From: Antitrichia curtipendula
Lineage: Eukaryota > Streptophyta > Bryopsida > Hypnales > Leucodontaceae
Direction: 5' to 3'
Assembly (NCBI GenBank): GCA_951230915.1
Contig: OX579633.1
Location: 1,116,001 to 1,180,000 of the forward strand
DNA: 64,000 nucleotides
Of this stretch, positions 7,471 through 50,820 are shown one piece after another. Below the pieces are notes generated by a model. The model saw only the letters and a program-made list of their open reading frames with translations, was not told where the DNA came from and ran no database searches. How positions within the stretch are numbered: position 1 is the first letter of the stretch; every line of letters begins with the position of its first letter. The position numbers and the translations under genes are program-made.

Positions 7471-7475
7471 AGGTC
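7471..7475. repeat. Target-site duplication AGGTC, right copy
   Basis: This is the right-hand partner of 3072-3076. It marks the exact point where copia sequence (the protease side) resumes. Confidence 0.85.
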
Positions 7476-8676: not shown

Positions 8677-8694
8677 GATGTAGAATGAAAATGG

Positions 8695-22416: not shown

Positions 22417-22799
22417 CTGATGGGATGGATATGCTGCTACTCGGTTGGTGTGGTGTTGCTAGTCGTAGTAGTCTCTGCGAAGTGTGCAACAATTCCAAAC
22501 TCAATTCACAAATTCACAACAACTAGAAAGATGAAATTCAACGTGCCGTGATCATGATCAGGTGTTCATGGAGAGATGAAACTATGGCGTGCTTACCGGT
22601 TGAGGTTTGAAAGTGAGAGGGGCGGATGTGGCCGCCGGGTAGTCCTAAGGGCTCGTCAGAGCATAGTGTGTCACGGGGTACCACAGGGTTGTGATTGAAT
22701 GCATTCTTGAACAAAATTCTACAGTCATGAACCAAAAATATTAGATTCTTGTGAAATTCAACAAACACGTCTCTGAATCTTCGAGGAGATTTGACGGCT

Positions 22800-24274: not shown

Positions 24275-24434
24275 GATGAAATTTTTACCACATGATTTCA
24301 GACAAGTGAAGTACAAGATCCTATGATTAGATTCTTAAAAAAAATGTTCTTTTTCCTTTCTTGGGTGAATGCATCAGAAATACAGTTTTGAGTGTTTTTT
24401 GACAGAAAACTCGCCTTGGGACTTTAGGGGTTAA
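24275..24434. mobile_element. Truncated end of a family-1 TTAA element
   Basis: It ends GACTTTAGGGGTTAA, preceded by AGTGTTTTTTGACAGAAAA and, further in, AAGATCCTATGATTAG, matching the right end of 29362-30290. The other end is missing. Confidence 0.6.
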
Positions 24435-25228: not shown

Positions 25229-25510
25229 GGTAACACTGTTCACGTGCGGGGTTCACCCCTGGTAAGTTTGCGACTACAAAGCAGGGACGCCGGAGACTCA
25301 CTCCAGGGACTGCGAGGGCTTCTATCCAGGGACTCCAGGGACTGCAAGGGCTTCTCTCCAGGGCTTCTCTCCAGGGCTGCGAGGCTTCACTCCAGGGACT
25401 CTCTAGAGACAGCGAGTCTTCACGGAGAGCACTGAGGTTTAGGGCAACTTCTGAGTTTAGTTTAGTATTAGTTTTGAATTTTTTTTTGAACTCTTTCTCC
25501 AAAGATTTGG

Positions 25511-30604: not shown

Positions 30605-30773
30605 TGGCTCTCAGTTTGTGAGGCTGTCTCAAGAACTAGAAGAGTGCGGTTTTCCTAATTTAAGAGGGATGCAGGTGCAGCGCTTGAAAGATCTTTGTCT
30701 AGTTGCAAATCATTCTGAGGAACTTTTTCTAAGCGTTTCCAAGCACCAGTGGCTAAGAACAGTTATCACCTGT
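30605..30773 (+). pseudogene. Kinase C' pseudogene, fragment 2
   Basis: Reads on from fragment 1: sequence for SQFVRLSQELEE, then LRGMQVQRLKDLCLVANHSE and WLRTVITC, matching kinase C residues around 60-125 with small changes. It stops at the CTGT at 30770-30773, where the 20 kb element begins. Confidence 0.88.
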
Positions 30774-30800
30774 AAGGCCATATTCATTAAAACGAGACGA
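30774..30800 (+). repeat. Left terminal inverted repeat of the giant element
   Basis: Begins AAGGCCATATTC and ends ACGAGACGA. A second, shorter inverted relative (ATGAATATGCC) lies at 30883-30893. It differs from the right repeat by one C/T. Confidence 0.88.
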
Positions 30801-31607
30801 TTTGGAATCTCATTTTGTTCATGACCCTAAATTTAGTATGCAAAAGAGTTGATTAAATTGAGACAATTCAATAAACTGAGACATGAATATGCCAATAGAC
30901 TTATTAATTTAAGCATGTACATGAAATTGCTTACCAATTTTGGAGTATAGACAAATTTTGAGTAATGATTTTAAAATTTGAAGTCTAAAATCGTCAATGA
31001 GTAAATATTGAACTTTAAGATCAAAGCAAAAGCTTGTGGCATATGCTTAGGATTTAGGGTTTATAGAAGAATTCATCATACAATGTGGTAATGCATCTAC
31101 TCTTACAAACCCATAGTGATGAACACAAAAAATACAACTTACAAACTGGAGAATACACAATGCAATATATAAAATAATAAAACATATTAAAAATATATTA
31201 TAATGCACACCAATTACAACATTAAATTCTAAAATACCAAGAATAATAAATGAACATAATGGACTAAAATAATTTGCGGACTAAATCTAGTTCTTCTTTC
31301 CAACCCCTTTCTTTATCTTTTTTTTTGTAAACATATTTAAGAAAAACACCTCTACTACTACAAGTACTTCAGTTACATTTTTTTTCTTAAAATATAAGAA
31401 AATACACTACAAACTTCTAATCACTTCCCTAAGCCTACAGTCTATCCACCTTCACTCAGAAGATGCATTGTTGTCTTCTCCACACACATAAGCCTCCACA
31501 GATGCCTTGATTATAGCAATTTGATTTTTGGGAATTTTGATTCTTGGATCAGAAGTCCCTGTTCTCACAAGTGGCTTCCAAGCAGTCATGATACAGTCCG
31601 TGTGCGT

Positions 31608-34295
31608 TCAGCTCGGAGAAATTGCCTTATCCTTGCACCAAGAATTCCCTTGTTTTGTATCCCAACCTCCGTATGTATCCTCCATAACGTGTTGAAAAGA
31701 TGAAGCTGTCCAATATTGCAGCTCAATTGAATTGACATGCCCTGGATCTGGATTAGGATTAGTAAGTGCACGAGCAAGCCAAAATGGGCGAAGGTCACCA
31801 TCAGCAGGTCGCACTGCAACAAAATAACCCGCATACACATCACGGCCAACACGGAATGAAGGTGCTGGACGGTCACGCCTACGACCAACAAATGGTGCAT
31901 CTTCTGCAAATTCTTCACGCATTTGACCATCGTCAAGGTATTGGTCTTCCACTTCCTCAATGATTTGAGAATTTGGCCAAAATCCATCCCGCAATTTCTC
32001 ACGCATCACGAGGGGTGCGTTCAGAGCGATTCTGACACCTTCCCAGTATTTCCGCACTGGCTCATTCTTCCTTCGGAACTCTCCAGACAAGTCTTGATTA
32101 GCCATTGCACCCCACAATGCAATATATCCTTCTAAACCCTTGCAAACCTCATCAAAACAACGCATCTTCTGTGGAGCCAAAGGTGGAGGTGTACCCCTTG
32201 GCACTTTAGGACCTCCATCTGTTGTCTCCTTCCACAAGCGAATGCCTCCACCTTCCTTTGGCAGCCAATCCACATCAGTAAACAAGATCTTGTACTGCAT
32301 CAAGGGCCATCCACTAGAATCCTTGTAAAATTTGAATTGCTGCACTTGAGAATGGCCCAATAAAGAATCATCACCTGTATGCAAATACCCCTCTATGAAA
32401 CACTTGAAATCAGGAACCTCTTCAATGAGATGAGGAATCACAGGCTGTGTTTCGCAATCCATGAAAGACTTCATTAACCTTGGAAGTGTAGGGTAATCAT
32501 TTGTCTTCAATTTGCTACTCCATCGACCGAAGAGAGCATCAATGTCCTCATGAGTGTGTCCGACAATGAGGAAATTGATGTAAATCTCTCGAAAAATAGC
32601 TCTATAGACTAGAAGAGAGCAAAATGCAAAAACCCAGCGGTTCTTGTTGTCACCAGAAGCATTATCAAGTTGAAGAGTCAATGTTGGAGGAAGGGGTTTA
32701 GCTTCCACCAACTCATCTGGGGGTGACTCAAGAGAGTCCGTACAAGTTTGTGAGCCTAATAACAAAGCCTTTGTCAATTCAGAACGATCCCCTCCTGCAA
32801 AAAGTTCACGAGATGAATGCTTCAGTTGCACTTCCAAATCTCTTAACAATTTTGCAAGTGATCCTATGGTATGGTTGGAATCTGTGGGGAAGATGTCTAA
32901 GCCATAGTGTGCATATCGCACATCTCCATGCCCATGAGCAATCATGCCCGTAACTGCCACGGGCATCTTCATGAATGAATCGTTTCCTTTGCTCTTGTGA
33001 GAGAAATGGGGAGAAGCGGTTTTTGAGTGATCCATCTTATCATGGATAATGGTCAAAACTTTGTCAGGAAACATCTCTGACATTCCACGATTTCCATAAT
33101 ACAAATCCCTATGCGCCTTCTGTCCATCAAGGTGCGCCTTCAATTTATAGACCCACACTTGTTGAGCTCGTGAACCAGGAGTGCAAGCACTCTTCAGCTG
33201 CTTTAACCTATCACAATATCCGCAACGAGCAAAACTATCACCCCTAGCCTTTGGAGCAAACTCTGGAAAAGATTGATGTCGAATGTTGCTCAATCCACTA
33301 GCTGAAGTATGTTGCAATTGAAATGACGAATTCACATTGTTAATCTTCGGTAACTTGTCTTTCCAGTGAAATCCAGATGGTAAAACCATGGAGGGAACTT
33401 TCTCCCCAGAGTTAAGGGTCTTTGTTTTGTGCGGCATTGCGTTAGCTTCGTTGTCTACCAATAATCGAAGAGTGGCCATTGCTTGTAAAGTGTGGGTTCG
33501 AGGCTTCTTCATCCCCAGATTACCATGATGCTCTGGTTTGTCCTCCTTCTTGGCTTTCCCTTTGTATCTGTAAAAAGTAGCCCTTGATACTCCATGAATA
33601 TGGCACCAAGCCGTGGGACAAACTTCATGTTTTGACAAGGTGATCATATCCCTCCCATTTTGATCATGGTAGATTTGCCCGTGTACATCAAGCAAACGAG
33701 ACTTCCGAGTGTATACACCTCTGTCAACATACATTACGGACCGAATGGCTTCAATCTGCCCACGTGGAAATGGTTGTACACAATTCTTTGTGCAACACTC
33801 CTTGCTAGACACCTCAGCCACTGACTGCGGGGTGAGAAGGACATCTTTTCTCGGGAGGCTGTTTGGCTCCTTCCTCTCTCGCGAGCTTTCATAGGAACGA
33901 ACTCCAATTCGTTTTCGCCGCCCGGTCCCGTTCAGAGCGGATCTGTACAAATGCGTTTGCTCATGATCATACAAACTAGCACCATTCAAATAGACCCTTG
34001 AAATGGGCCACGAGTGCATTGACCACATCCACTCCGAAGGAACTTCTTCTTCGCATAAAGACTCTGCAATATGAATAGCGACGCGATCGTCACCAAGGGG
34101 CTCCCCGTTCATGTCGATGACAAGATCCGCATCTATGTTGTGACAAATCCCTTTAGCCACATCCACCGAGCTTTCATTTCTAAGGATGACACACTTTGTA
34201 TACCAAGAACCACGTGGTATTCCCTCGCAGGGTGCAACACCCTTGGGCAAAACTGGCACCGGAACTGTAAACTCGTTGACATCATGAGTATCCAT
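31608..34295 (-). CDS. Transposase-like protein of the giant element (DUF7869-like)
   Basis: 895 codons, uninterrupted. An AttCTTGCAG|G 3' splice site lies immediately before the ATG at 34295. A matching GTAAGT donor at 35531-35536 (minus sense) gives a 5'-UTR intron of 1240 bp. A helix-turn-helix-like stretch (HGVSRATFYRYKGK) is near residue 228 and a Cys motif (CGYCDRLKQLKSAC) near 355. LQLDNASGDNKNRWVF lies near 543 and VGHTHEDIDALFGRWS near 575. The D-N and GHTHxDID motifs are those I know from proteins annotated as DUF7869, an RNase H-like, transposase-related family in plants and animals. It is the best candidate for the enzyme that moves the element; no activity is shown. Confidence 0.75.
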   Translation of the reverse strand: MDTHDVNEFTVPVPVLPKGVAPCEGIPRGSWYTKCVILRNESSVDVAKGICHNIDADLVIDMNGEPLGDDRVAIHIAESLCEEEVPSEWMWSMHSWPISRVYLNGASLYDHEQTHLYRSALNGTGRRKRIGVRSYESSRERKEPNSLPRKDVLLTPQSVAEVSSKECCTKNCVQPFPRGQIEAIRSVMYVDRGVYTRKSRLLDVHGQIYHDQNGRDMITLSKHEVCPTAWCHIHGVSRATFYRYKGKAKKEDKPEHHGNLGMKKPRTHTLQAMATLRLLVDNEANAMPHKTKTLNSGEKVPSMVLPSGFHWKDKLPKINNVNSSFQLQHTSASGLSNIRHQSFPEFAPKARGDSFARCGYCDRLKQLKSACTPGSRAQQVWVYKLKAHLDGQKAHRDLYYGNRGMSEMFPDKVLTIIHDKMDHSKTASPHFSHKSKGNDSFMKMPVAVTGMIAHGHGDVRYAHYGLDIFPTDSNHTIGSLAKLLRDLEVQLKHSSRELFAGGDRSELTKALLLGSQTCTDSLESPPDELVEAKPLPPTLTLQLDNASGDNKNRWVFAFCSLLVYRAIFREIYINFLIVGHTHEDIDALFGRWSSKLKTNDYPTLPRLMKSFMDCETQPVIPHLIEEVPDFKCFIEGYLHTGDDSLLGHSQVQQFKFYKDSSGWPLMQYKILFTDVDWLPKEGGGIRLWKETTDGGPKVPRGTPPPLAPQKMRCFDEVCKGLEGYIALWGAMANQDLSGEFRRKNEPVRKYWEGVRIALNAPLVMREKLRDGFWPNSQIIEEVEDQYLDDGQMREEFAEDAPFVGRRRDRPAPSFRVGRDVYAGYFVAVRPADGDLRPFWLARALTNPNPDPGHVNSIELQYWTASSFQHVMEDTYGGWDTKQGNSWCKDKAISPS

Positions 34296-34296
34296 C

Positions 34297-35536
34297 CTGC
34301 AAGAAATGTAACTGACATTAGTATATAATGGAAGATCACATCCACGAGTCCAGGATACACCATATATGATATTCTATAAAATCATTGCCAAATTATCTTC
34401 GAGCCGAAGATATGATTTTATACAAATCAAAATACAATGATATGAAGTGTCTCACTAGGGAGAGACGAATACAAGGTGAGTGTCCTCACTATCCAGAACC
34501 CATGAAATCCACAAATCCTAAGTAAGCTACTAATAAATAATTATTATATAAAAATCATTCAAATAACCCATCACACAGACAAGTCAGTAAAATATTAAAG
34601 CTTGTAAATTTACCATCTAATCAAACATAAACATCTAGAGAACAAGAGATATGATTTGATTGAAAGGTCTATGCCTGAAATACAATCGCCAAAGACGAAA
34701 TCCAACCACCTTACAAATACTCAAAGTTAATGAGAAGGATCATTTTATCCTCGACCCGAAGAAAACTAATATGTCAATAATTGTCAAAGAGAATTACATC
34801 CGTATTTCATACTAGACTATAAACCAAACACGCAACTAATACATTAAAAATATATTATCTTCGATACGAAGATAATTGCTTACAGAACATTTACTACTGA
34901 AATCCACTATAAATTCTAACTTAAATCATCCGGAAATCTTATCCGCCCGAAAACTTATCTTCGATCCGAAGATAATAATCAGAATACAAACATGATGAGA
35001 ACAGTTCCATGACTGAAAACGAAGAATAAACCGGTGTATATTCACTGCCGGAATAGTCTATCCAGAAATGAGTATCTACTATATTATTTATCTTCGCCCC
35101 GAAGATAATTGCAAAATAATCCAGCAAGTACATTTTGGTCTCATCAAGTTTTACATTATCTTAATCATCATAATGTACATTATCATAAGCTAATGACACT
35201 TATCTTCGACTCGAAGATAAATAGTATAGGGGTTGGTGTTCAAGATTATCCTCGAGCCGAGGATAAATATGATCATTCCGGTATGGTACTGACGATGTCT
35301 CCGGGTTTTCCGGCGTAGAAGTAGGGAAGTTCAAACCACGTTAAATTCTACAGTGACCTTGGAATCTATGTCGTCCGAATGCTTACTGCTCAAGACTATC
35401 ACTTGTAGGTGACGGATGGAGAACAGAACACTGTACCTTGTACAACAACACGGTTTAAAATCAAACAGGTCTCAGTGAATGACACCAAACACAGACACTT
35501 TGACAAGAAATAATGAAAAAAGAACCTGGAACTTAC
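34297..35536 (-). other. 5'-UTR intron of the transposase-like gene, rich in palindromes
   Basis: Donor GTAAGT (rc of 35531-35536) and acceptor TTGCAG (rc of 34297-34302). It contains palindromes at 34393-34412, 34745-34765 (weak), 34855-34875, 34955-34975, 35088-35108, 35200-35220 and 35246-35266. The 5' exon would lie above 35537 in a GC-richer stretch with the likely promoter. Confidence 0.55.
34393..35266. repeat. Seven dispersed 21-bp palindromes (TTATCTTCG arm type)
   Basis: Arms TTATCTTCG and CGAAGATAA around variable centres (ATA, ATC, CCC, ACT, AGC). The copies at 34855, 34955, 35088, 35200 and 35246 are perfect in both 9-base arms; 35246 uses the TTATCCTCG arm. Spacing is irregular. 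Confidence 0.9.
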
Positions 35537-36074
35537 GAGAACTCAAGCGATACTAAGCCGCGAGCGAACTACTAACTTCGCAAAGACAAAATGAAATGAA
35601 AATCCAGTCATTCAGAGGCCGCGCCGTAACAATGCATGCAGGAGGCAAAGGAGGAAGGAAAGACTGGAAAGCAAGAAAATGAGACGATATGGGGAGCTCA
35701 TGAGAGAGAGACGATGAAGGAAGTGGCGGGATGGCAAAGTAGGAAATTTGAACGATCATAAATTTCAGGAACTAGGGGAGGAGTATCTCCCTGCTTTTTG
35801 GGCGTTGACATTCCTACTTTGCAACTGGTGCTAACGAGGTGGAATGGAATCCAAGGTTCCACCAACATTTATTTTTATAAATAGGCGGAATTTTAAAAGC
35901 CGAGTTAATGACAGCCGATTCTTGTCAGGAAATGAAGACTTTACAGAAATACAGCCACATGTCATATGTCACGGAAAGTGAGATTTTCTTGGATTGGAAT
36001 CTCAGATTCAAGAGATCCTTTATTTTGGAATTTGATTTCCGTGAAATATTTTTAAAAGTTATTGATAAAACTGT
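35537..36074. other. Probable 5' exon/promoter side of the transposase-like gene
   Basis: No long conserved frame. The minus strand from about 35700 down to 35537 is GC-richer and ends in a good donor site, consistent with an untranslated first exon. Confidence 0.4.
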
Positions 36075-36130
36075 TTTAGGGTTTAGGGTTTAGGGTTTAG
36101 GGTTTAGGATATAGGAATTAGGGTTTAGGG
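36075..36130 (+). repeat. Interstitial plant telomere-type repeat
   Basis: Four perfect TTTAGGG units (36075-36102) followed by degenerate units to about 36130. TTTAGGG is the common land-plant telomere repeat. It lies inside the giant element. Confidence 0.85.
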
Positions 36131-36224
36131 ATTTTGGGGTTCAGGAGCAAAAGCTAAGCCACACAAACCTCAAAATAGTCAAGCTTGGGCAACCAAAAAT
36201 ATCATATGGACCTGAAATTTGAAA

Positions 36225-37148
36225 TTAACCCCTAAAGCCCCGAGGCCTTTTCTCCATCAAAACACACTCAAAAATGCCACTTCTATTGCCAAGAGCAAAA
36301 GACTATAAAAACAATTTTTTTTTTTTTTCATATCTAACCATAGGATCTTGTACTAGACTAGTATGAGAATGTGTGCAAGAAATTTCAGAAACTTTGACCA
36401 AATAGATTGCAAGATATATTTTCATTCAAAGTGAAGAAAACAAGTTTTTTTGCACCTTGTTTGACTAGATTTTTGGCCTTTGAACCTATTTAACTTAAAT
36501 CTTTTGTATGGTTGATTTTGATTTTCTAAGTTTTTATGTTGAATACTTCAGTTCAGAATCTAGGAAAAAAATTCCAAAAAAAAAACACTACATTTTTACT
36601 CATTAAAAAATTGTTATGGGTTTAGGTTTAAGATTGAAGGAATAACTAAATTGTTAATACTCCTAAGACAAAATTGAAATACCATAATCCCAACGTTGAG
36701 ATTGTTTTAGCCAGCAAGTTCAACCTTGTCTAACAATTTCTTTTCTGAAAATTGTAAAAATTGCATTAAAAAATGAATCCTAAAAGTTATTTCTTCAAGA
36801 TGCTTAGATTGCCCAAAAAATTAAGATTGTCCATAACTTTTTTATTATTAGTCCAAATAGAATGAATCAAAGCTTCAAATGTAGACAAAAAGACATAGAT
36901 TTTGAAAAAAATATTTAAGAAATTTATTTTGACTTTCTGTGACTTTTTTTTGTTGCCCGCTTAACTCTATTTCTGGCATAACTTTTTCTGGCGGGAACCA
37001 AATGAAATAAAAATTATATATCCACAAAGCTCTTGCAGAACCGCACTACCTCAAAGAACCTCAAAAAAAATCTCTACAAATTGAGGTCAGTGGAACCTAC
37101 CTGAACCCAATTGTCCCCCGAGGGGACAAACGGCCCTTCAGTGGTTAA
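36225..37148. mobile_element. Family-1 TTAA element inside the giant element
   Basis: Left end TTAACCCCTAAAGCCCCGAG, right end ACGGCCCTTCAGTGGTTAA, 924 bp, same orientation as 15963-16914. It has the AACCATAGGATCTTGTACTAG segment near the left and GTCCCCCGAGGGGAC near the right. Non-coding. Confidence 0.7.
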
Positions 37149-37693
37149 AAGATAAATTTGTTATACATTATATTTTTGACTATATGTGGAAAGATTGATT
37201 CATTTCATTTGGATTAGTATTGAGAAGGTATAGAGCATCTTTCTTTTGGAGCAGTTATAGCATCTTTTTTGAAAGAACTTCATATTAGATCTTTTTTGTA
37301 GCTTTCAATTTAATTCTTCAATATGATTTTTTATTAAATTCAAAGTTTATAGTGCAAAAATTTAAAGTTGAGGATTCAAAGTCTATTTAGCTTCTGTAGT
37401 AAAGTAAGAAAACTAAAGCTTGTTTTTATTAAAATATACTATATTGAATAAAATACGATTTTAGAGGAATTGACAATTACATTATTTGAACACATATTAA
37501 CACCATATATGATCTAAGACAATTACAACCTATATCAAGTACATTGCGAGTATTTGCATTTAAAGTGAAAAAGGTTTGTTTTTCCATCTTGCTACAATAA
37601 ATTATAAGACTTTGAATTCTCTTTAGCTTATAATTTATGCAAATGAATACAGATTTTGAATTAATTTTTTTAATGAAGACATGAATTGATATT

Positions 37694-38281
37694 TTAACCT
37701 TTAAAGGACCAAGGCCATTTTGGGGGTCAAAATTACTCAAAATTGTCATTTCTATTGCATTCATCCAAAAAAAATTACATTTAAAAGAATCTAATTGTAA
37801 GATCTTGTACTGCACTTGTTTGAGATTGTGTGGTTTTAATTGCATAAAGTTTGACTATACAAACTGAAAATTATCAGGACTGAAAGTTGAGTTTTTTTTT
37901 TTTTTTAAACATTGATTTGCAACTCTAGAAGAATTTGACTACTATTTGTGGAATTTCTTTTTGGTATCTAAACTTTGAATTAATAAAATGATTGTGATAA
38001 GTAAAAGATTTGATAGTCTTGGAATATTTTTTCAAAGAACACCCACTTGATTTTCATTCTTTTAAAAATTGTTAGGTAGAAGTAAGTTTACAATTGAAAA
38101 AGAAACTAAATTACTAATAGCTCGAAGATGGGATTGAAACACAATAATTCCAATGGTAAGATTGTTTTAGCAATCAATGTTAATCTTATTAAACATTTTT
38201 TTTCAAAAATGATAAAAAAAATCGTTCAAAATGAATCTTCCAAGTTAATTTTTCAAAAAGTTAGATGCCTACGATTGGTGT
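37694..38281. mobile_element. Partial family-1 TTAA element
   Basis: Left end TTAACCTTTAAAGGACCAAG with the usual GTCATTTCTATTGC and AGATCTTGTACT landmarks. The right portion is lost near 38281, where another TTAACCCTTTAGGG start appears. Confidence 0.5.
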
Positions 38282-38754
38282 TTAACCCTTTAGGGCCTAA
38301 GGAGCCCCAAGCAACCTCTTGAATTATTTGGGAATCAAATTTGCATCTTAAAATTTTATAATTTAATATAAATTATTATTTTTCCACATATAATCATTTA
38401 TATCTTCTATCTGATCTGACTTTTTGATATTTTTCCGGAAATAAATGAAATTTATAAGATTTTTTAGAGTTTCTATCTTTGAAAAATTATAGTAATTACA
38501 AAAAAGCTGAATTGAATACCATGAAATTTTGGTAGAAAATAGAAGAAATTATAATGAACATTATGATGAAGTTCGCATGCTCTCTTTAGTTATACACAAA
38601 TAAATTTGATAGAAAAACATGTTGCACAGTGCATTTTGAAACTCTAGAAATCCCAACTTCAAATTGCCATAGACAAATCATTATTGCTCTAAATTTAATG
38701 GCCATTGGCTCATTGGATGAAAATTACATTTTTACTCATTAAAAAATTGTTATA

Positions 38755-39625
38755 GGTTCCTGTGACCTCAATTTGTAGAGAAATTTTTTGGGATTTTTTG
38801 AGGTTGTGCACTTCTGCGAGAGCTTTGTGGATATATAATTTTTATTTCAATTGGTGCCCGAGAGAAAAAGTTATGCCAAAAATAGAGTTTGGCGGGCAGC
38901 ACAAAAAAATCACAGAAAGTTAAAATAAATTTTTTAAATATTTTTTTCAAAATCTATGTCTTTTTGTCTACATTTGAAGCTTTGGTTCATTCTATTTGGA
39001 CTAATAATGAAAAAGTTATGGACAGCCTTATTTTTTCGGGCAATCTAAGCATCTTCTTCAAAAATTAACTTTTAGGACTCATTTTTTAATGCAATTTTTA
39101 CAATTTCCAGAAAAGAAATTGTTGGACAAGGTTGAATTTTCTTGCTAAAACAATCTCACCGTTGGGATTATGGTATTTCAATTTTGTCTTAGAGCTATTA
39201 ACAATTTAGTTGTTCCTTCAATCTTGAACCTACTTCTATTTAACAATTTTTTAATGAGTAAAAATCTAGTGTTTTTTTCTTGAATTTTTTTTCCTAGATT
39301 CTCAACTGAAGTATTCAACATATAAACTTAGAAAATCAAAATCAACAATACAAAAAATTTAAGTTAAATAGGTTCAAAGCCCAAAAATCTAGTCAAGCAA
39401 GGTGCAAAAAATTTTTTTTTTTTCACTTTGAATGCAAATATCTTGCAATCTATTTGGTCAAAGTTTTTGAAATTTCTTGCACACATTCTCATACTAGTCT
39501 AGTATAAGATCCTATGGTTAGATATGCAAAAAAAACAATTTTTATATTTTTTTGCTCTTTGCAATAGAAGTGGCAATTTTGAGTGTGTTTTGATGGAGAA
39601 AAGGCCTCGGGGCTTTAGGGGTTAA
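38755..39625. mobile_element. Family-1 TTAA element, left end truncated
   Basis: Right end CGGGGCTTTAGGGGTTAA is intact. At the left the match to the reverse complement of 36225-37148 starts inside the element (GACCTCAATTTGTAGAG), so about 55 terminal bases are missing. A 30-base segment just before 38755 also derives from this family, suggesting a rearrangement. Confidence 0.6.
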
Positions 39626-40850
39626 TTTAGCATGAATTTGATTACGCCATCTGTGAAAGGTTACATCTCTTGGTGTTTATGAGTTTTCTGAGTTTTTTTG
39701 CATGATATGTATATTTGAATGTTTTGTAGTTTCTGTATGTAGTTTCATAATTATGTCTCATAACTTTCATATTGAATTCTAAATTTATTTACAAAACAAT
39801 TTTATATAAGATACATGAAGACATCATTCATATTAAAAGTGTAAAACTATGGGGAAGCCATTGACTTCAGCACGACAATGGATCATACCTGAGGTTGCTT
39901 AAAGCTCTTCAAATTATTAAATTGATTAGTAGTAAATAATATTATTAAATCCAATCATTAAACAAATATTTTTATTAAAAGCCACTATTCATGCCAAGTC
40001 TTTTGTAAATATTAATGATTTCGATGCAATTTTATTCTTGTAGAATTTGTTCTCCTTACATCCATAAAAATGTTATTACACTTTGCATTCCAAACAATGT
40101 AGTACTTCACAAGTCATGATGATAATAACTAAAATCCAAAAGGAATCAATTTGAGAATTAGGTGAAGTGCACATTTTCATATCAAATGGCCAATGTTCAA
40201 ATGCATGGGATGTCTTTTATGAATCTATTATTGCATTTACTTGACTATTTGATTGATATTATTATGGAAATTTAATCATTTGTCATGCATCTAGAGTCTA
40301 AGACAAACAAATTTGTTATCTATTAAAAAATCAAATGAGCATTATATACTAGAGCAATACTTCATATATGCAATAATATTAAATATTTTTATTGGCATTA
40401 AGTCATTAAATATTGTATTGGCATTAAGTCATAAAATATATACAAATTGGCATTCAATTTGTGTGGCATAGCTTTTCCTCTAAGATTATTTTAATCCAAC
40501 AATTAGCAAGGTGACAAAACAAATTATTTTTCCAATGACCGACCCGTCGTTCAATTCCCAAAACCAAAATTTAAAGTAGTTCACTTCATTATTGAGTAAT
40601 ATGTAGCGTAGTGTGGTGCAATGTTCGGGAAGAACTGGCGGCAAAATCAAAGTTAGCCGGTGGAATTGGAAAGAAACCCAGTAACAATTTGAAACTATTG
40701 ACTAGAAAATGGTGAAAATGTCTAAATTCTTTAAATTCTGAATGGAAAAAAGAGAAAACAACCGGACTTGGTACTTGAAAAACCGCTTTAGTATAGAAAT
40801 TGGAGGAAATTAGTCGGTAAAACTAAAAATACTTCCCGAAGAGAAGGAGG
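39626..40850. other. Non-coding, nothing recognised
   Basis: AT-rich stretch between TTAA elements and the GC-richer upstream region of the cargo gene. No supported feature. Confidence 0.45.
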
Positions 40851-41872
40851 TTGGGATTGCAGGTTCGGGTTCCCAGATTACAGATTTGGAACTGGTCCGG
40901 GAGGTCAACAGGAGGTCAGGTGGGAGGTTCGGCTCAGGTTCGTGGACAGGCTCGGGACCAGGATCGGGCACAGGCTCGGGAGGTCGTCACTCCCGTTTGG
41001 AGGCGCGGCGAGGGTGTTCCGGCCATTTGTGTTTCCAGGTTCTCTCCTCTATGGGTTTCGGTGCACCTTGTCTTGAAGTTTGATTGCGTACTTCCTTGTT
41101 TGTATAGGGCTTTTTCGTTGTATTCTACTTAGTGCTGTCTGTAGGGTTTAAGGGTTTTGGTGTGTGTTCTGCGAGAAGGCCGAATTTGGAGAAGGTCGGT
41201 GGTGGTCAATTTGGAGAAGCTCCGCGACTGCTGTGGAACTTGTGGCGCAATTTGTGGCGCGCGAACTGGGGTGGCGACTTCTACAACTTGGGCGAGTCGT
41301 GGCGCAGCGAGGTCGAAGGTGCGCATTCGGTTGGAGGTGTCACGAGCAGCTCCGCAACAGGTCGCGCGCAAGATCGGGAAGCTTGTAGGTGGTGTGCTCG
41401 CTCCAAGGTCGCGATCGAGAAGCTCGCAGGTGGTGCTTTCTGTAAACCACTCCGCCCTGTCATTTGCTTAGTCTTCGTTTTCGGATTCATTAGCTTGTGA
41501 ATGCTTGATGCTAGATTTGTGTTTGTTGCGTGGGTTCGTTGGTTCTGCTTGTGAATGCTTCATGCTAGAATTTAGTTTGTTGCGTGGGTTCGTTGGTTCT
41601 GCTTGTGAATGCTTCATGCTAGAATTTAGTTTGTTGCGTGGGTTTTCAGTTTGTTGCGTGGATTTTCAGTTTGTTGCGTGGATTTTCAGTTTCATTCCTA
41701 TGTTCAGTTTGTGCAAATTGTGGTTTAGTTCTCAGTAGTTTCTGTTACTTCTTTCTTGAATTTATGTTGATTATGATTTAATTTCTTACTTTCCAAGTAC
41801 TTCCAATGTGCAGATTTTGAACTCTAGGAGAATTAGGCTGCGATTGTATATTGTCTGGAAGACGCACTGACA
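40851..41872 (+). promoter_or_regulatory. Putative promoter and untranslated first exon of the cargo gene
   Basis: GC- and CpG-richer than its surroundings, with G-rich and GGTTCGG-type runs at 40855-40990. It ends in a strong donor CAG|GTAAGG at 41870-41878. The matching acceptor is TTTATGCAG ending at 42955, 12 bases before the ATG at 42968. The open frames here are in conflicting phases and probably not translated. Confidence 0.45.
41493..41700. repeat. 54-bp tandem repeat and a 21-bp TTGCGTGGATTTTCAG repeat
   Basis: The unit GCTTGTGAATGCTT... starts at 41493, 41547 and 41601 (period 54). It is followed by three copies of CAGTTTGTTGCGTGGRTTTT. The open frame across it is a by-product of a period divisible by three. 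Confidence 0.8.
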
Positions 41873-42109
41873 GGTAAGGAATTTTTGGCTTCAATCACTT
41901 TCCCGCATTCTTTTTTGTTTTTTGTTTCCAGTAAACATGAATGTCTGCTTCGAAATACAGTTGTATGATGCGTTGTTTCAGCTACCAGACCAGAAAGAAT
42001 CTAGTTAAACGAATACCTCAGATAACGAACTCTTAATTTAGGGTTTTTGACAAAATATCCACTTCCACAGAATCCAGACTGCCTGAAACGATGATGGAGC
42101 GAAGTATAT

Positions 42110-42382
42110 TTATCCTCGGGCCGAGGATAAACATACAGAACCCGAGGATGTTTAACCTCGGCCCGAGGATAAAAATAAAGAACCCGAGGATGTTTATCCT
42201 CGGCCCGAGGATAAACATATAGAACCTGAGGATGTTTATCCTTGGGCCAAGGATAAACATACAGAACCCGAGGATGTTTATCCTCGGCCCGAGGATAAAC
42301 ATACAGAATCCGATGATAAGTACCCTAGGGATCTGTATGTTTATCCTCGGGCCGAGGATAAACATCCTCGGGTCGAAGATAA
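42110..42382. repeat. Palindrome array with 42-bp (2 x 21) period
   Basis: 21-bp palindromes start at 42110, 42152, 42194, 42236, 42278, 42341 and 42362. All offsets are multiples of 21. The 21-bp spacers (ACATACAGAACC, then CGAGGATGT) resemble half palindromes. At 42236 both arms change together (CCTTGG and CCAAGG), keeping the symmetry. This lies in the 5'-UTR intron of the cargo gene. Confidence 0.92.
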
Positions 42383-42481
42383 ACATTATACAACTCCAGG
42401 ATAGGCACTAAAACATAAACCACAAATAAAAAAACCAGCCAAAAGCTAACAGAAGCATCCGGAAGCAAATCCACAACCATA

Positions 42482-42502
42482 TTATCCTAGACCCAATGAT
42501 AA
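42482..42502. repeat. Degenerate 21-bp palindrome copy
   Basis: Arm TTATCCTAG, then CCC, then AATGATAA. It is out of phase with the neighbouring arrays. Confidence 0.5.
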
Positions 42503-42566
42503 ATACAGTCAATAGAATAAACTCGTAGAGATCATAAGCAACAGAGAACCATGAAAAGTAGTGTAA

Positions 42567-42671
42567 CTATCTTCGGTCCGAGGATAATTATCCTCGGACC
42601 GAAGATAATTATCTTTAGATCCAAGATAAGTATCCTCGGACAGAAGATAATTATCCTCGAACCGAAGGTAA
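42567..42671. repeat. Five head-to-tail 21-bp palindromes (105 bp)
   Basis: Copies at 42567, 42588, 42609, 42630 and 42651 abut without spacers. Arms vary between TTATCCTCG, CTATCTTCG, TTATCTTTA and GTATCCTCG forms. Further single copies are at 42799-42819 (weak) and 42895-42915. Confidence 0.92.
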
Positions 42672-42967
42672 AAACCAAAGCGACAGTTAACCACAAAGAG
42701 AAAACTAGCTGAAACGTATTAAAAAACAACAAACATACAGAGAGACAAACAAACTAAACCAAGTACTTCTACTGTACGCCTAAAAAAGAAGAAGAAGGTT
42801 ATCCTCAACGCAATGATACTCATAAGCAATGAACGCTCTACGGACATAAAAAAAACAATACAAGGGATGACAGATGCTAATGCAGAGGCTACAATTATCT
42901 TTGGGACGAGGATAATAATAAACACTAATCTAAACTGGTGAATCAATTTATGCAGACTCTCCTAAAA

Positions 42968-45942
42968 ATGACAGAGGGTACGAGCTACGACTATTCAGCC
43001 ACCGCCCCGTTTCTCGAGCCATTCACAAAATGGACGGCGGAGGAGCCATTCATATACGACTGGCCGGAGCTCTACGGCGACCTTTGGCAATTCAATCCCA
43101 TTGTAGACTCCTGGACCTTCGGAATAAACCGGTCAAAGGACTATGTACTTCTACGCCACAGGGTTAAGGATTCAGGAATCTACGTGAACTGGAACCTCGA
43201 CGAGAAAGCCGCCCTCGTAGAGCTCCACCAAGAGAAGTTCATTGTTCTAACACTTCACGCATGCGACCAATCCGGAAAAGACACAAACCACAGCCACTCC
43301 ATTGTCCTGCATGAAGAAGACAATGTGAGGGTGTTCGATCTGGATAACCTCATACGTGGATTACACGAGGGAAATCACGATGAACTGGCTGATGAGTTCC
43401 AAAAGAGATTCCATCCATGGATCCGTAAAAACGCCATCTACATGGCGAGAAGGATTGGCTACATGTTCAGCAGATTGAAAGACTATGCCAAAGAACATGT
43501 AGACAAGCAATCACGTAACAGCTTGGGCCGTGGCCAAGTCAGACGCAAAGCTGACGCCGAAACGAAGTCAGTATCCAGAGCGCGTGCCCGAACCGGGAGC
43601 AGAGGGAGTGGAAGGGGGACTACGCGAGCTCAGCTTCCTAAACGGAAGAACCCGGATACAGGGGCCGTTGAGGTCATAGAGAAGCGCCAGAAACCCGTGG
43701 CAGACAGTCGGGCAGGAACTATTGGAAGTTCAGGCTCCGCGCTAACAAACGTTCATAACGGGAAGACGGGCGAATATGAGCCCATCCAGAAATTCGAAGT
43801 CGTCGGGGCATATCAGAAGGATTTCTGGGACAAACATGCGTCATGCTTCATTTTTGATCCTATGACATTCAAGGTCAACATCTCCAACTGCCATTTGGCC
43901 CCTCCAAGATACATCATTCGTAAACTGGAGATGAAGATTGTTGAAGAAATGAAGGAGACTCTTGTCCATCTTGGGTCCGTCCAACAAAGGCAACTAGTAT
44001 GCCTGACTCCGGTTGACGCCAACAGAAGGCTCCTCAAGGAACGTCCTTCGAAGTGGGATGATATTAAGGATGGGAATTTCTATATTATTAATGGACAACA
44101 TAGCATCACTGCCTCTAAAATGCTGCAAAGTGGCGGATGCTGCGAGTCTCGAAAGGTAGAGTTGCAGACGTGGAATGCAGCGATCGTCTATACGCTTGAC
44201 GCGAGAAAGCTCACAGAAATATCCAAATGGTACAACTCCTCCAATCACCTTGTTCATAGTCAACCGACATGGGGAAACCAGATTTCAGCTTGCAGGCAGG
44301 TGTGGAAGGAACTGAAGCGGCCAACAAATGTGGAACGTGAAGGACTGGCAAGACTGAACAATGCCATCTGCAATTCAGCTGTTTACAAGGTATGCACCGT
44401 CTCTCTGATTATCTTCGAGGCGAAGATAAATTGTAGCTACTACTTATATGAAATGGTGCATAGTTCTTCAGTCGTGTAATTTGATTGTAAGACAACATCG
44501 GAGAGTGTGACTATGATTATCATCGGGTCGAGGATAATTTGCTCTACCTCCTGCTCTCCTAATGCCTCGGAACTGACGAATGTCTCAATGATAATATTGC
44601 CCTGCAGGAATTCGTAGACGCTGTGCTAATTCGATATTCGAGCATTAACCCGGACAAAGAAGGTGCCAAGGTGAAACTCGCTTCCGATGTTAAGAATGAA
44701 ATTAGAATCATTACATTGGCAGACGAGACGTACCAGTTGTGGGAGGAGTTTCTACGGAAACACACTGACGGAGAACTGGTGGATCCGGTGACGTGCACTG
44801 AATATAAGGTTTCCACAAAGAACTTCAACCCCAAGAACTTCTCACTGAAGAGAGAGTTCTTCAAGCACATGGGGCATTTCACGGACAAGGACCTCAAGGA
44901 ATATGTCCTCCATCTTCTTGGAAGAACAGAAGGCCGCACCCGCGATTACCCAAAAGTCTCCGTGACTGCTGCAAGGATTTTGTGCGTGGACAACTATAAG
45001 GCTGAGCACTGGGTGGAGCGGAGAAAGCGCAAGAAAATTGTCATAGAGGAGTTCATGGCTCTCGACAAGTCCTTAAAGTTCCGGGACTCACAGGGGGAAG
45101 TGATCAATGTTGTATGGAGAAAATGGAAGCGCACGAACAAATTTACTTCTGCCTCGTGGGACTTTATCCTGACTGTCCCGCCCAATTCCTTTTTTGTGAA
45201 ACGTCTAACGAACGAAGCCAAAAAGAAGACAACCGTAGACTTTAAGGACCACCCGAAACTGTCCGTGGTCTATCCCATCTTCAAGATATTCTTGAAGCTG
45301 AAGAAGCAGATCGTGGAATCCGCTGGAAGTGTGTACATCCGGGGGCACCAATGCTATCCGCAGGCTCTTGTCACGAGCCACCAGTGGCCCTACGCCAGTA
45401 GAAAACTTCGGCTGGCCGTCATAGACTTCCGCATCCTGCCTCGACCGACAGCCGGATCCTCTGATGGTCCTCCGTGTTCTCCACTTTTGAATTACTTGGC
45501 TGCTCATTTAAAGCCCGGAATTACTACCCCGGACGCCTGGTTATGGATTGTGGGAAGTCAATATGACTTGGAGGTGACGAAAAAATTTGCAGCTTCACGG
45601 TTAAAAGACTACGAGGTCAAGGTGTCGACGTACCAGCCCAGCAAAGCTGAAAGGTTGGATAACACCACGACACGAGCCACGCCTTCCGTGGTGAAGCTTG
45701 TATTCGTGTTGAAGAAAGGGACAGATGGCGAGCCCAAAAATCTGGATGCTGTGAAGAGAATCTACTCGACGGGCGATATCCCTTACTACAATGAATTCCA
45801 GAAGAATACGGAGGCCAAGTATAGGATGCACGCCAGTGAGCTGAGGATGGAGTTTTACATTGACATTCTTCAGAGCTTCTGTGTAAAGGGAGAGAACGTC
45901 ATTGGCATCTACACGGGATCAAAATTTATGATTGCCGCAAAG
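42968..45942 (+). CDS. Cargo gene, exons 1-2: protein with ParB/sulfiredoxin-like motif
   Basis: Exon 1 is 42968-44389 and exon 2 is 44608-45942 (donors AAG|GTATGC and AAG|GTAGTA, acceptor CCTGCAG; all phase 0). The ATG at 42968 follows a good 3' splice site at 42955. Residues 1-165 form a globular domain I do not recognise (YDWPELYGDLW, HSHSIVLHEED). Residues about 185-260 are very basic and probably nuclear-targeting (TTRAQLPKRKN). Residues about 340-390 read LVCLTPVDANRR...YIINGQHSITASKML, close to the ParB/Srx-fold core, although the usual Arg after GQH is Ser. Exon 2 is all coding with no known motif. The intron holds palindromes at 44409 and 44517. A nuclease, a NTP-binding DNA clamp or a structural role are all possible. 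Confidence 0.7.
44409..44537. repeat. Two palindromes in cargo-gene intron 2
   Basis: 44409-44429 has perfect arms TTATCTTCG and CGAAGATAA around AGG. 44517-44537 is TTATCATCG, GGT, CGAGGATAA. Confidence 0.9.
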
Positions 45943-45967
45943 GTAGTACTCTAACTCCTGCCACCCA

Positions 45968-46130
45968 TTATCCTCGAGCCGAAGATAACACCCTGAATCC
46001 GATGGTTATCTTCGGCTCGAGGATAACTATCCATGATACACAGTTAATATCCATGTAGACCTCCTAGTCTTTTTCTTACTACAATTGTTGTTTATAGACT
46101 GTTGAATATTTATCCTCGACCCGTGGATAA
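45968..46130. repeat. Three palindromes in cargo-gene intron 3, two forming an exact inverted pair
   Basis: 45968-45988 and 46006-46026 are exact reverse complements of each other (arms TTATCCTCG/CGAAGATAA against TTATCTTCG/CGAGGATAA), separated by 17 bases, so they can form a 21-bp stem. A third copy is at 46110-46130. Confidence 0.9.
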
Positions 46131-46200
46131 CCGTGCTTGAGTATAACTCCAAAAATTCAATGTGAAAATTAGGTGCTAACTTGTCGTCTTGGTCCTGCAG

Positions 46201-47586
46201 ATGTATGGCCTCTTCTACTACGGCATTACCGAACGACATCAATCCGAGAAGCATCAAGACATGGCAAAATACGGCAGTTCCTTAGACATCAGGGACTTCT
46301 GCCATGAGAACTCGCCTTACCTTCCAGGTTATGAACGTCCAAGCAACCTATCAACTCCGAAACTAGATTCCGAGTCCACGTCGTCCTTAGCTGATACCAT
46401 CAAAATTGCAGAGAGGGAAGCCGAATTCCGTGGCCACGGTGGTGCCTTGGAACTCGGAATAAATGAGTTCGGGGCGAACACCGAGATGGTCGGCGGCGAC
46501 GACCTGGATGTTATCATTACGGATGTCGAGGTAGAGAATCGGTTTCCGGTATTGAAACCAGTCGAAGTTCAGGAAGAGGCAGAGGACACGGAGCAGGTGG
46601 AGGTGATGGTCGCGGCAGAGAAGAAGATAAGTAAGAAGGGCAAGATGCCCATTGAGGGGTCAGTAGCTATTTACGATCTGAGTGAACTCGAGGAGTCCTA
46701 CTCAGATCTGAATGACATTGACTACGGGGATGCGGAGGTCGACGAAGGGGGGCCCTCAAGTGCCAACAATGAAGTCGAATCAGCTTTGGAGGTGCGACCT
46801 AAGCCTACTGCGGAGTCCGTTGCCCCATCAGTTCAGGGTCAAACGAGTCTGCTTCCGGTGAAGCAAGAGAACAAAGACTTCTGGAAGCATCGTGCGGAGA
46901 GGAAGGCCCTGAAGAGGGCAGAAGAGGAAGCCAGATGGGCAGAGCAGCAGTTGGAGAAGGACATGTTGAAGGCGAAACTAGAGAAACTCAGGAAAGAGAA
47001 TGACTCTCTCAAGACACTGACGCAGGACCCGTCAGTCTCTCGGTCCCTTCAACAAATGAGTTCCGGATCTCCACAGGGCTCCGTTCAGAAGTCAACTTCG
47101 GCAAACATCCAGCATTATCCTTGAGGCGAGGATAATGCTGCGTCACCTCGGACCCGTGTGCAGCGAGCAACCTCGGCCGATACCCCGAAGGATCTTTGCG
47201 TCCAAGATAACGTTGTATCTCATCCTACCTTGGATGAGGACAGTACCAGACCCACTGCTGGTGAACCTGTACTACCGGATGTTCAACGGGAGGAACAAGG
47301 GCATGACGAGATCCCGGACCAGACTGGACCAGCAAGACCTGAAGCTGAATCGGGTTATCTTCAATGCGAAGATAACTTGAGCCGGCTCGCTGATGTCGGA
47401 CTCCAAGGGGAGTCAGTGCTAGAGACGCAAGAGGAAGGTGAGATTCCGGCGTATCCGGTACCGCTTGCGATTGCCTCTCCGGATCACAAAATGGTGGTTG
47501 AATTCGAGAACCCGCCTGACGAAGAGGAGAGCTTGGACTACGGGGATTACATGGACGAAGAAACGCCCAACATCGATCTCGGTCAG
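46201..47586 (+). CDS. Cargo gene, exon 3: acidic, coiled-coil segment with an in-frame TGA
   Basis: The acceptor GGTCCTGCAG ends at 46200 and the donor CAG|GTACAG is at 47586. The frame continues exon 2 in phase 0. It begins MYGLFYYGITERH, then is acidic (YSDLNDIDYGDAEVDEG). A heptad-like coiled coil follows near 46890-47020 (KALKRAEEEARWAEQQLEKD). A single TGA at 47122-47124 lies inside a 21-bp palindrome; downstream the same frame stays open for 154 more codons to the donor. CGA in the palindrome consensus would be Arg, so the stop looks like a C-to-T change. Either the protein ends here or this copy is a recent pseudogene. Confidence 0.6.
47111..47139. repeat. Palindrome in coding exon, extended to 29 bp, containing the stop codon
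   Basis: The core 47115-47135 is TTATCCTTG, AGG, CGAGGATAA, and four more bases pair on each side (AGCA...TGCT). The TGA at 47122-47124 lies inside it. Other exonic copies are 47190-47210 (weak), 47355-47375 (TTATCTTCA, ATG, CGAAGATAA) and 49654-49674 (weak). Confidence 0.8.
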
Positions 47587-48117
47587 GTACAGTCTCCAGC
47601 ATCTTCAGATCCCTACGATTATTCATGAGTCTGTCCATTGGGATGTAATGGATGTTCGTGTTGTGGGTTTCTCATGAGGGATCTCTTATGTCGATTCATT
47701 CTGATTGACAGGAGGGAATGGGCAGTCTCTGATTGTTTGGCGTCGACAATCTGCTCTTTGTGACTTCGTCTTGTAGGATAGTGTACATACTCGAGCGAAG
47801 TGTAGTGAATACTGTAACCAAATTAAATAGTAACTCATCAAAACCGGTAGACCGGATGTATCTTAATTACTTGAGAAATATATATACGGGGCACTCTTCT
47901 TTCGGTGAATTTCGTGTCTAATGGATGCATTTTGACCAAGCTTGTGCTCAGCGCAAAAAATATATGAGTGTGCTTCGACCGTTACCACTCAAATTACCTC
48001 TTACTAGAGGGGTTCTGCAGTCGCTTAGTGGGGTTAAGTACTGGTCGCCGTTTTATGAGTCACCTGATTCCGCATTTCAATAGGTAACTACATATCTTTT
48101 CTGTTTTGTTTGATCAG
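47587..48117 (+). other. Cargo-gene intron 4, or intergenic gap
   Basis: Donor GTACAG and acceptor TTTGATCAG fit a phase-0 intron joining exon 3 to the FCP1-like exon. Unlike the other introns, it contains no palindrome that I can see. If the splice is not used, the exon 3 frame ends at the TGA at 47626-47628. Confidence 0.5.
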
Positions 48118-48960
48118 GAAGTAGCAAGGAAGCGCAGAGAGAGAGTGCCGCGGAGTGTGTCCACGCTAGTTCCTCAACCGCGGCAGAAGTGGTTGAACCT
48201 TGTATTTGATTTGAACGGAGTACTGTGTGAGTGCTTGTTTCAAAAGTCATTTTTGGAACAACGGCATCACACAGTGCACGAGAATATATTTTCCGACCGA
48301 ATCCCCACCATCATTGAGCCCAAGGCCGTCTTCGTTCGTCCCAATATGAGGGAATTCTTAGACGAGCTTTCTAGGATTACGAATCGCATTGTTGTCTGGA
48401 GCTCCATGTTGAAGAAGACTGTGGAACCTGTCGCTGGTTTCCTGTTCCAAAACAACAAGGCGCCCTTCGATATCCTAGGCCAAGAACAGTGCAAGACGAT
48501 AGAAGTGTCCAAAGGGCAACACCTTAAACAGATTGGGAGCCCTTGGAAGTACCTGCTTCTCAAAGTGCTTGAAGAGCAATTGTTCTTAGACCCGGATGAT
48601 CCAACGTCCTTTAACAAGGACAACACTCTTCTCATTGACGACTCTCCGCAAAAGAGCATCCTCAATGAGAACGGGAATGCAATATTCCTTGAGAGTTGGA
48701 ATCATGAGATCCGTGGGGACAAAGTATTGTTGGGCAGTTTAGTTCCGTGGTTGAAACGACTTCATGAGGAATTTCCACTTGGTTGCTTGCGCGAGTTCGT
48801 TGATGCGAACCGCATTGGCATGCCCCCCTTGTCTCCTGAGTCCCATCATGCGTATGGACTGTTAGGCGGCATGAAGAAGTCCGCCAATAATTTTGGGTCC
48901 CATTTCGTCTTGCCGGGGATGAAACTAGTGATTGAGCTGGAGAGACGTAGGAAGAAATAG
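48118..48960 (+). CDS. Cargo gene, exon 4: FCP1-like HAD phosphatase domain
   Basis: 280 codons from the acceptor at 48117 to TAG at 48958-48960. The HAD/FCP1 fold is clear: motif I LVFDLNGVLCE, then FVRPNMREFLDEL, motif II IVVWSSM and motif IV LLIDDSPQKS. FCP1-type enzymes dephosphorylate proteins such as the RNA polymerase II tail. Here the second Asp of the DxDG motif is Asn (DLNG), which occurs in some plant HAD proteins and may reduce or abolish phosphatase activity. A basic N-terminus (RKRRERVPR) precedes it. It may be the C-terminal domain of the ParB-like protein, or a separate gene if exon 3 ends at its TGA. Confidence 0.75.
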   Translation, partial: EVARKRRERVPRSVSTLVPQPRQKWLNLVFDLNGVLCECLFQKSFLEQRHHTVHENIFSDRIPTIIEPKAVFVRPNMREFLDELSRITNRIVVWSSMLKKTVEPVAGFLFQNNKAPFDILGQEQCKTIEVSKGQHLKQIGSPWKYLLLKVLEEQLFLDPDDPTSFNKDNTLLIDDSPQKSILNENGNAIFLESWNHEIRGDKVLLGSLVPWLKRLHEEFPLGCLREFVDANRIGMPPLSPESHHAYGLLGGMKKSANNFGSHFVLPGMKLVIELERRRKK

Positions 48961-49270
48961 TACTTCTGTGTATACTCGTTGGTCGTAGAAAGCGTTGTAC
49001 ATACTGTCAATACAAATTATTATGTAAATTTCATTCTTGGGTATTAGTAAAATTTTGAAGTTTCATTTTGATTCTATGTTTTGTCTATGTTGAGTTATCT
49101 TTGGGTCAAGGATAAGTTCTGGTCTTTGAGATCTTGTTGTTTTTGGTTGGAGAATAGTTGTGGAGGCTTTGTCTTATCAATGAATTGAAGATATTAACTA
49201 TGCAAGTAGTTTGTTATCTTTGGACCGAGGATAAATTGTGTAAGGGTAATGTACTCTCCGTTTTCTTCAG
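48961..49270 (+). other. Gap with two palindromes between exon 4 and the next coding stretch
   Basis: Palindromes at 49095-49115 and 49214-49234. A polypyrimidine tract and TTCTTCAG acceptor end at 49270, so at least its right part is an intron. No matching donor is obvious before the 48958 stop. Confidence 0.55.
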
Positions 49271-50215
49271 GTCGGAGGGTCCGTATTGCACCTGTTGCAA
49301 CAGAGACAACCGCTCACCACTAGGAGCTTGTTGTCTGAATCGGATGCACCCATGTCTAGGAAATCCGAGTCGGCTGGAGCGAGCTTCTTGCCGTTCTCTT
49401 ATCCTAGGCCTTCTCTTCTCGGCTCTGCAACTAACGCGGCTTCCGCAGCCATCGACTTCTCAAAGGGGAATGTGGAGGAAGGCGTGGTCGACAGCCCACC
49501 CAGTAGAGGATCATTGAGGACCCCGATTTGCTCGCCTTCACCTATGAAGAAGAGTGACTTCATTCCTAGTCGATTGCGCTCGCAATCGCCAACGCTACGG
49601 ACTTCAAACACCCCACACAGGAAACTATATGTAGATGAAGAACAACAAGCGGTGGATCCTCGCCTTGAGGATGGACTAAAATCACCTGCAGCGGTTGCAT
49701 ATCACCTTCTATAGGGTGATGATTACAATACAGATTCCACAGGGAGAGGTTGCAAGAGGAAGGTCCCATCAGGTGCATGCAATGCAGGTCAGGTCCCATG
49801 CATCGCACAGATTATTGACTCCATTCCCTCTAAATCTGTGGGAGGCAGATCTTCGCCTTCTGGAGTACCTACATCCCATCGAACAAGTCTTCGAAATTTT
49901 CGAGGGTCAAATTACACACGATCAACAACAACTGCTGATCCGTATATAAGTACTATCAATAGACCATTTCCAAAGCCGCCTTGTCGAAGTTGCAAATCTC
50001 TTTCTAATGATGGTACAGCCGGAAGTGAACGCAAGCGACGAAGAGAAGTGAAGGAACTAATGCTGATGGGCATGTTTGGCCGTGTCCTTTCTGCGAGTGA
50101 AGACCCAAGGCCTTCTCGACACGAGGATATCCTTAGAGGATTGAGCAAGTTGAAAGCAGTAGAGGCAACCAATGAGGCAGCAAAAACTTGTTCTTCCACC
50201 AAGAATGATGGCTAG
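49271..50215 (+). pseudogene. Third coding stretch of the giant element, one in-frame TAG
   Basis: A frame opens at the acceptor at 49270 and runs to TGATGGCTAG at 50215. It is broken only by TAG at 49712-49714. The first half is Ser/Pro-rich (SPSPMKKSDFIPSRLRSQSP); the second has a basic, Cys-containing end (PFPKPPCRSCKSL, SERKRRREVKELM). No domain is recognised. It contains a weak 21-bp palindrome at 49654-49674 read as coding. It may be the 3' end of the cargo gene or a separate gene; an unnoticed intron around 49700-49770 could remove the stop. Confidence 0.5.
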
Positions 50216-50711
50216 TGGATTAGTTCCCTTTTGGAATGCAATGAATTTTGTATAGCATCCATTACTATTAATAGAATATTCATTCACATACATTTTTTAG
50301 AAAAGGCAAAGGCTTCATGTGCACATGGCCTTCATATTTTTAGACTATCACATTCAATCATTAGAATTACAGGAATGATTTCATTTCCTAGGCATTACGG
50401 TATATATAAATGAGATAAATTGGTTCATATGTAGATGGCATCTTAAGTAGATTCATTTTCTTCAACGTAAATTGACCACTTCAGTTGTTATAAATGTTAC
50501 ATACTTTTTGACACCCTATGTGGAATTCCATTTTGTATTGTTTGAGTTTGTGATTGCTCTAAGCAATTCTATAAACCCACAAAAATATATCTTCATGACC
50601 AATTTAAAATAGTAATCTCCTCATTAACTGTTGGTAAGGTTATCCATATTTATCTTTGCCTCCAACAACTTATCTTTGAAAAGAGGGACTTAGGTTCTCA
50701 TTTTGACCAGT

Positions 50712-50738
50712 TCGTCTCATTTTAATGAATATGGCCTT
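50712..50738 (-). repeat. Right terminal inverted repeat of the giant element
   Basis: The reverse complement of this segment begins AAGGCCATATTC and ends ATGAGACGA. It matches 30774-30800 at 26 of 27 bases, and the match continues loosely for a few bases (TGG). Confidence 0.88.
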
Positions 50739-50820
50739 CTGTAACCTAAGGCTTTCTTTTCCAATGAAGCGATCCAGCAACCGTGTACCACACAAATCTC
50801 GAGCATCACCATTCGTATTA
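50739..50820 (+). pseudogene. Kinase C' pseudogene, fragment 3
   Basis: After the CTGT duplication the sequence for PKAFFSNEAIQQPCTT and SSITI resumes the match to kinase C. A 7-base deletion lies near the junction (C has CAAGCAT there). It ends at TA (50819-50820), where a miniature element is inserted. Confidence 0.85.

Follow-up and report, generated by a model that had tools for sequence, protein, structure and literature searches.

A putative giant Sola-type transposon in the moss Antitrichia curtipendula with a predicted ParB-fold cargo gene and repeated 21-bp palindromes

Boundaries of the element and its empty site

The DNA analyzed here is a 64-kb stretch from the moss Antitrichia curtipendula (the window), in which positions 30774–50738 are occupied by a mobile element of 19,965 bp. 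The element begins with a 27-bp terminal inverted repeat (TIR) on the plus strand (30774–30800) and ends with its counterpart on the minus strand (50712–50738), the two being identical at 26 of 27 bases, with termini that read AAGG..CCTT. When the 27-mer was searched with up to three mismatches, both element ends were the only matches in the 64 kb, and 100 shuffles gave none. CTGT is present immediately outside each end (30770–30773 and 50739–50742). A paralogous empty site was located by BLAST and Pfam on the minus strand (58020–58274), inside a kinase-like gene at 56800–58557; there the sequence GTTATCAC-CTGT-AAC is unbroken and holds a single CTGT (58105–58108). The joined flanks of the element aligned to this paralogue as one BLAST piece over the insertion point, with 228 of 258 columns identical (88%). 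As read from the letters, the 7 bases just past CTGTAAC in the paralogue are missing from the right flank.

Since CTGT stands at both ends and the paralogue is contiguous, a single 19,965-bp unit has inserted into one copy of a kinase-like gene. A preliminary description of this DNA had proposed the 27-bp ends with one mismatch, the flanking CTGT copies with an uninterrupted paralogue and a single mobile unit of this length; the precise ends, the duplication and the empty site agree with it in each respect. It had also asked whether the duplication measures 4, 6 or 8 bp: the flank letters give 4 bp and fit neither of the longer versions. Further kinase-like frames were recognized by Pfam at 21139–22458 and 60342–61460; together with the frame at 56800–58557 and the interrupted copy, they suggest a kinase gene cluster.

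Transposase gene

The transposase gene lies on the minus strand (31458–34295) and encodes a DUF7869 protein (PF25273, Pfam 1.7e-45), with homologues, tblastn and an RNase H-like model also contributing to its identification. In the window copy the open frame stops at 31608, at a stop that is absent from homologues and 50 residues short of the end of the homologue P0006; the frame is broken. The protein models as an RNase-H-type transposase. The alignments used 55 of 102 transposase matches, 36 of 36 ParB-like matches and 57 of 67 matches to the second cargo exon; that of the transposase has conserved aspartates at D445, D570 and D610/D612, the third catalytic residue not being fixed. A sequence search of solved structures returned no credible relative, and a literature search found no mention of DUF7869. 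The model supports the view that the DUF7869 protein, whose core is modeled as RNase H-like, acts as the transposase that would move the unit between its 27-bp ends.

Cargo gene and its link to the element family

The cargo gene is located on the opposite strand and is divergently transcribed. Gene prediction divides it into exon 1 (42968–44389), intron 1 (44390–44607), exon 2 (44608–45942), intron 2 (45943–46200) and exon 3 (46201–47628), all on the plus strand. Exon 1 encodes a weakly PH-like part, a basic linker and a domain predicted to adopt the ParB/sulfiredoxin fold, in which NGQH is invariant in 37 of 37 aligned rows and is followed by S in the query. A sequence search of solved structures gave no credible relative of this protein; the prediction nevertheless supports a cargo gene encoding a ParB-fold protein. 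The end of exon 2 forms the first part of a methyltransferase-like motif in the right register (hmmsearch E 1.2). The methyltransferase motifs of the cargo protein are not canonical, and no Pfam methyltransferase was detected in the exon-2 proteins or in a 255-residue piece spanning exons 2 and 3. PHROGs likewise offered no consistent family for the exon-2 proteins, one member matching a methyltransferase family at E 0.17. The cargo protein possibly carries a methyltransferase-like end.

Linkage between transposase and cargo was read from the size of the longest contig for each protein match, which gave 96 distinct sizes for the transposase; the ParB-like part had 36 matches and exon 2 had 67. 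Contigs of 46150, 556257 and 460842 bp were common to transposase and ParB-like matches, and contigs of 46150, 493283 and 80586 bp to transposase and exon-2 matches. Five contig sizes are common to a transposase and a cargo homologue, and the two cargo parts also share five. Sizes equal to the base are improbable by chance for contigs so long, and the homologues are therefore read as co-located; the cargo apparently moves together with the element family.

No relatives were confirmed in scans of viral_contigs. A scan of genome_contigs revealed one related locus, L001 (4,327 bp), whose transposase is 47% identical. This contig (CADCWO010000071.1) is filed under a soil Synechococcales metagenome-assembled genome and encodes a moss-like transposase; it is probably a eukaryotic contamination of that genome.

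Distribution of 21-bp palindromes

The element contains 30 copies of TTATCYTCGRNYCGARGATAA (at most three substitutions), and the remaining 44 kb of the window contain none; ten shuffled windows held either no copy (eight) or one (two). The conserved palindromic stretch is 21 bp, and flanking positions carry little information. A scan for symmetry only placed six of six perfect 21-bp palindromes inside the element; with one mismatched pair allowed, 15 were inside and 6 outside. We take the outer TTATC/GATAA to resemble a GATA-type site.

Eighteen palindromes are dispersed, and the other twelve form two tandem arrays. The region upstream of the transposase gene holds seven (34393–35266) and that upstream of the cargo gene fourteen (42110–42915, including both arrays, with units of 42 and 21 bp), while two stand ahead of the last plus-strand frame (49095–49234). 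Five more are found inside the two predicted cargo introns (two in intron 1 and three in intron 2, 476 bp in total), and two in exon 3, at 47115 and 47355, the former containing an in-frame stop. Predicted coding sequence thus holds 2 of the 30 palindromes while making up 53% of the element (nested insert excluded), a deficit with a binomial P of 7e-8 for all 30 and 2.5e-4 for the 18 dispersed copies, given approximate ends for the last two frames. Two half-sites, TTATCTTTG, occur at 50650–50678, no more than 90 bp from the right end; none were seen near the left end.

L001 bears another 21-bp palindrome, TTTAGCTCGANTCGAGCTAAA. With this pattern, derived from L001 itself, 5 copies were counted at up to three mismatches and 10 at up to six, against shuffle means of 0.0 and 0.18 (n=40), and all 10 lie outside the matched transposase stretch (658–3264). 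In a pattern-free scan of L001, 3 palindromes matched in 9 or more of their 10 pairs, where 0.2 were expected; at 8 or more pairs there was no excess (4 against 2.1 expected). The core CTCGANTCGAG is one form of the window motif, whereas the outer five bases are TTTAG in L001 and TTATC in the window. Based on these two elements, the palindromes look like a hallmark whose recognized sequence changes from one element to another. We propose them as candidate sites at which a protein encoded by the element, probably the ParB-like protein, would bind.

Other frames, nested insertion and neighboring repeats

Two further plus-strand frames follow the cargo gene. The frame at 48088–48960 has a NIF/CTD-phosphatase-like domain (PF03031, 1.4e-16), with no relative at E 0.001 in a sequence search of solved structures; the last frame (49250–50215) has one internal stop and no Pfam match.

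A fold-back element of about 3.4 kb (36222–39628) lies within the unit. Its arms (36222–37099 and 38753–39628) are 90.6% identical and, judging from the letters, end near TTAA. Diverged relatives with approximately 70–76% identity occur in the window at 29360–30290, 15947–16179 and 24255–24438. The CpG ratio is 0.30 in the fold-back element versus 0.78 for the whole 20-kb element. The fold-back element is apparently a later nested insertion that did not belong to the original unit; without it, the unit would measure about 16.5 kb. Just ahead of the fold-back element, eight copies of TTTAGGG, the plant telomere unit, occupy 36075–36130, and tandem repeats built of 54-bp and 20-bp units are found inside the large element at 41493–41692.

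Elsewhere in the window, Pfam identified adjoining Myb/SANT-like (25490–26356) and DDE_Tnp_4 transposase (26899–27762) frames, a pair that we take to resemble a PIF/Harbinger element. An integrase-like frame (1425–2756) and a copia-type gag frame (7441–8733) look like remnants of a long terminal repeat (LTR) retrotransposon.

Relation to known elements

The 4-bp duplication, the transposase fold and the moss host, to which named homologues also point, together lead us to infer that the element belongs to the Sola superfamily as a moss variant. Sola elements are described as having 4-bp target-site duplications, DDD transposases and TIRs of 11–1124 bp, and as able to exceed 15 kb (PMC10741241); they occur in the moss Physcomitrella (PMC10741241; PMC9033089). 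The CTGT found on both sides here, and once in the paralogue, corresponds to such a duplication in the single copy, and 27 bp falls within the printed TIR range, a very broad one. Moss host, 4-bp duplication and TIR length are common to the Physcomitrella elements and ours, compared by description only, and the RNase H-like model may correspond to their DDD-type transposase; ParB-like cargo and palindromes do not appear in the accessible parts of that description.

The closest counterpart is Sola1-1_Ec32 of Ectocarpus, a 21.5-kb Sola1 element with a ParB-methyltransferase gene on the opposite strand (PMC12477816). As far as the accessible description goes, it shares with the moss element a size of about 20 kb and an accessory ParB-like gene opposite the transposase; it is also reported to have an N4/N6 DNA methyltransferase domain, of which the moss element gives a weak indication with non-canonical motifs. 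Its host is a brown alga and not a plant, and this comparison also rests on description. Among the papers listed by our literature search, that paper was the only one found to describe a eukaryotic transposon with a ParB-like gene, and words beginning with palindrom are absent from its main text. The preliminary description had read the locus as one large TIR element that carries a transposase-like gene and ParB-like cargo, which the present analysis supports, and had considered its cargo new to plant transposons; a ParB-like cargo is indeed present, but the comparable Ectocarpus gene, as printed, qualifies the novelty. Giant ParB-carrying Sola elements are a known kind, and we read the moss element as a variant of it.

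Two other classes were considered and rejected. EnSpm/CACTA (CMCT) termini are mostly 5'-CA..TG-3' (PMC12730594), unlike AAGG..CCTT. The fungal Starships, likewise large units with cargo genes, rely on a tyrosine recombinase encoded by the captain gene. The moss element has inverted ends, its transposase is modeled as RNase H-like, and a Pfam scan of 8 element frames found no tyrosine-recombinase domain.

Bacterial ParB, Noc and KorB act on repeated palindromic sites across a replicon, KorB also at promoters. Their ParB/sulfiredoxin fold is the one predicted for the moss protein, which differs from bacterial ParB in having GQHS for GERR, a candidate site of 21 bp and a eukaryotic gene with introns.

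Interpretation

Taken as a whole, the locus is best read as a giant Sola-type cut-and-paste transposon of mosses, with a DUF7869 transposase and a ParB-fold cargo belonging to its family, in which a protein would bind the palindromes to regulate or mark the element; we assign this reading a probability of roughly 0.7. Several results weigh against it. The evidence for the element comes from one copy within the 64-kb window, and linkage of the cargo was deduced from equal contig sizes, not from contig names. GERR is the nucleotide-binding motif of ParB, and the cargo protein does not keep it. Foldseek with the ParB-like part yielded no ParB-like match at E 0.001 (best 1.8e-3), and with the transposase nothing convincing (best E 0.21, unrelated rows); the latter matches were set aside as mostly ribosomal or other unrelated chains, with Tn5 transposase among them at E ~1. 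Pfam assigned no consistent family to the 37 ParB-like proteins scanned, nor to 58 exon-2 proteins or the 255-residue piece, and hhalign gave the methyltransferase-like motif a probability of 3.7%.

Other explanations were weighed against this reading. That the genes came together by chance between two small independent elements, or between ends that do not belong together, is hardly credible: the window shows a single copy, with at least one nested insertion in it, but both outer flanks carry identical CTGT, the paralogue is contiguous, and the end sequence has no additional copies inside the element. The empty site contradicts this explanation, and it was rejected. That the palindromes are RNA hairpins of introns and leaders is improbable. 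The motif can fold into a hairpin of 9 paired positions around a 3-base loop, and five copies fall in predicted introns; yet the pairs at positions 6 and 16 (9 C-G, 8 T-A, 6 C-A, 5 T-G and 2 other) display no detectable covariation (Fisher P 0.45, n=28; low power), a result more in keeping with DNA recognition by a dimer than with an RNA stem.

A weightier alternative, though still an unlikely one, is that the palindromes serve the transposase or a host factor while the ParB-like protein does something else. The palindromes of L001 flank its transposase gene, and the 4.3 kb of that contig showed no ParB-like gene, without a search aimed at one; because the transposase gene is the only one seen there, this explanation keeps some weight. 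The half-site-like TTATCTTTG pair near the right end also points toward it. However, the palindromes keep away from the terminal parts of the element, the usual place of transposase sites, and cluster at promoters and in introns. The palindrome sequence also differs between the two elements, and an element-encoded reader therefore fits better than a host factor.

The element probably works as follows. The transposase would cut and paste the unit at its 27-bp ends; with no intact transposase frame in the window copy, further movement would need a transposase from another copy. The ParB-like or another element-encoded protein would bind the 21-bp palindromes as a dimer, and loading near both promoters and in introns could allow it to coat or mark the element's own DNA. 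The bound protein might set the expression of element genes and perhaps shield the element from host silencing. More tentatively, and with the odds somewhat against it, the element may have its own nuclear partition-like system: its ParB-fold protein would load on a 21-bp palindrome that is specific to the family and recurs along the transposon, with the site and the protein changing in step between elements. A giant transposon would then possess the eukaryotic equivalent of ParB-parS or KorB-operator as a means to coat, regulate or mark its own DNA.

For giant algal DNA transposons with prokaryote-like accessory proteins, binding and marking of their own DNA has been proposed, with no binding site named in the accessible text (PMC12477816). 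Our analysis suggests transposase as a function for DUF7869, a domain of unknown function. If the palindromes are the binding site, the self-marking proposal could be tested directly in mosses, which have a genetic model in Physcomitrium. If true, land plants would gain an example of a mobile element that possesses a DNA-marking system of its own.
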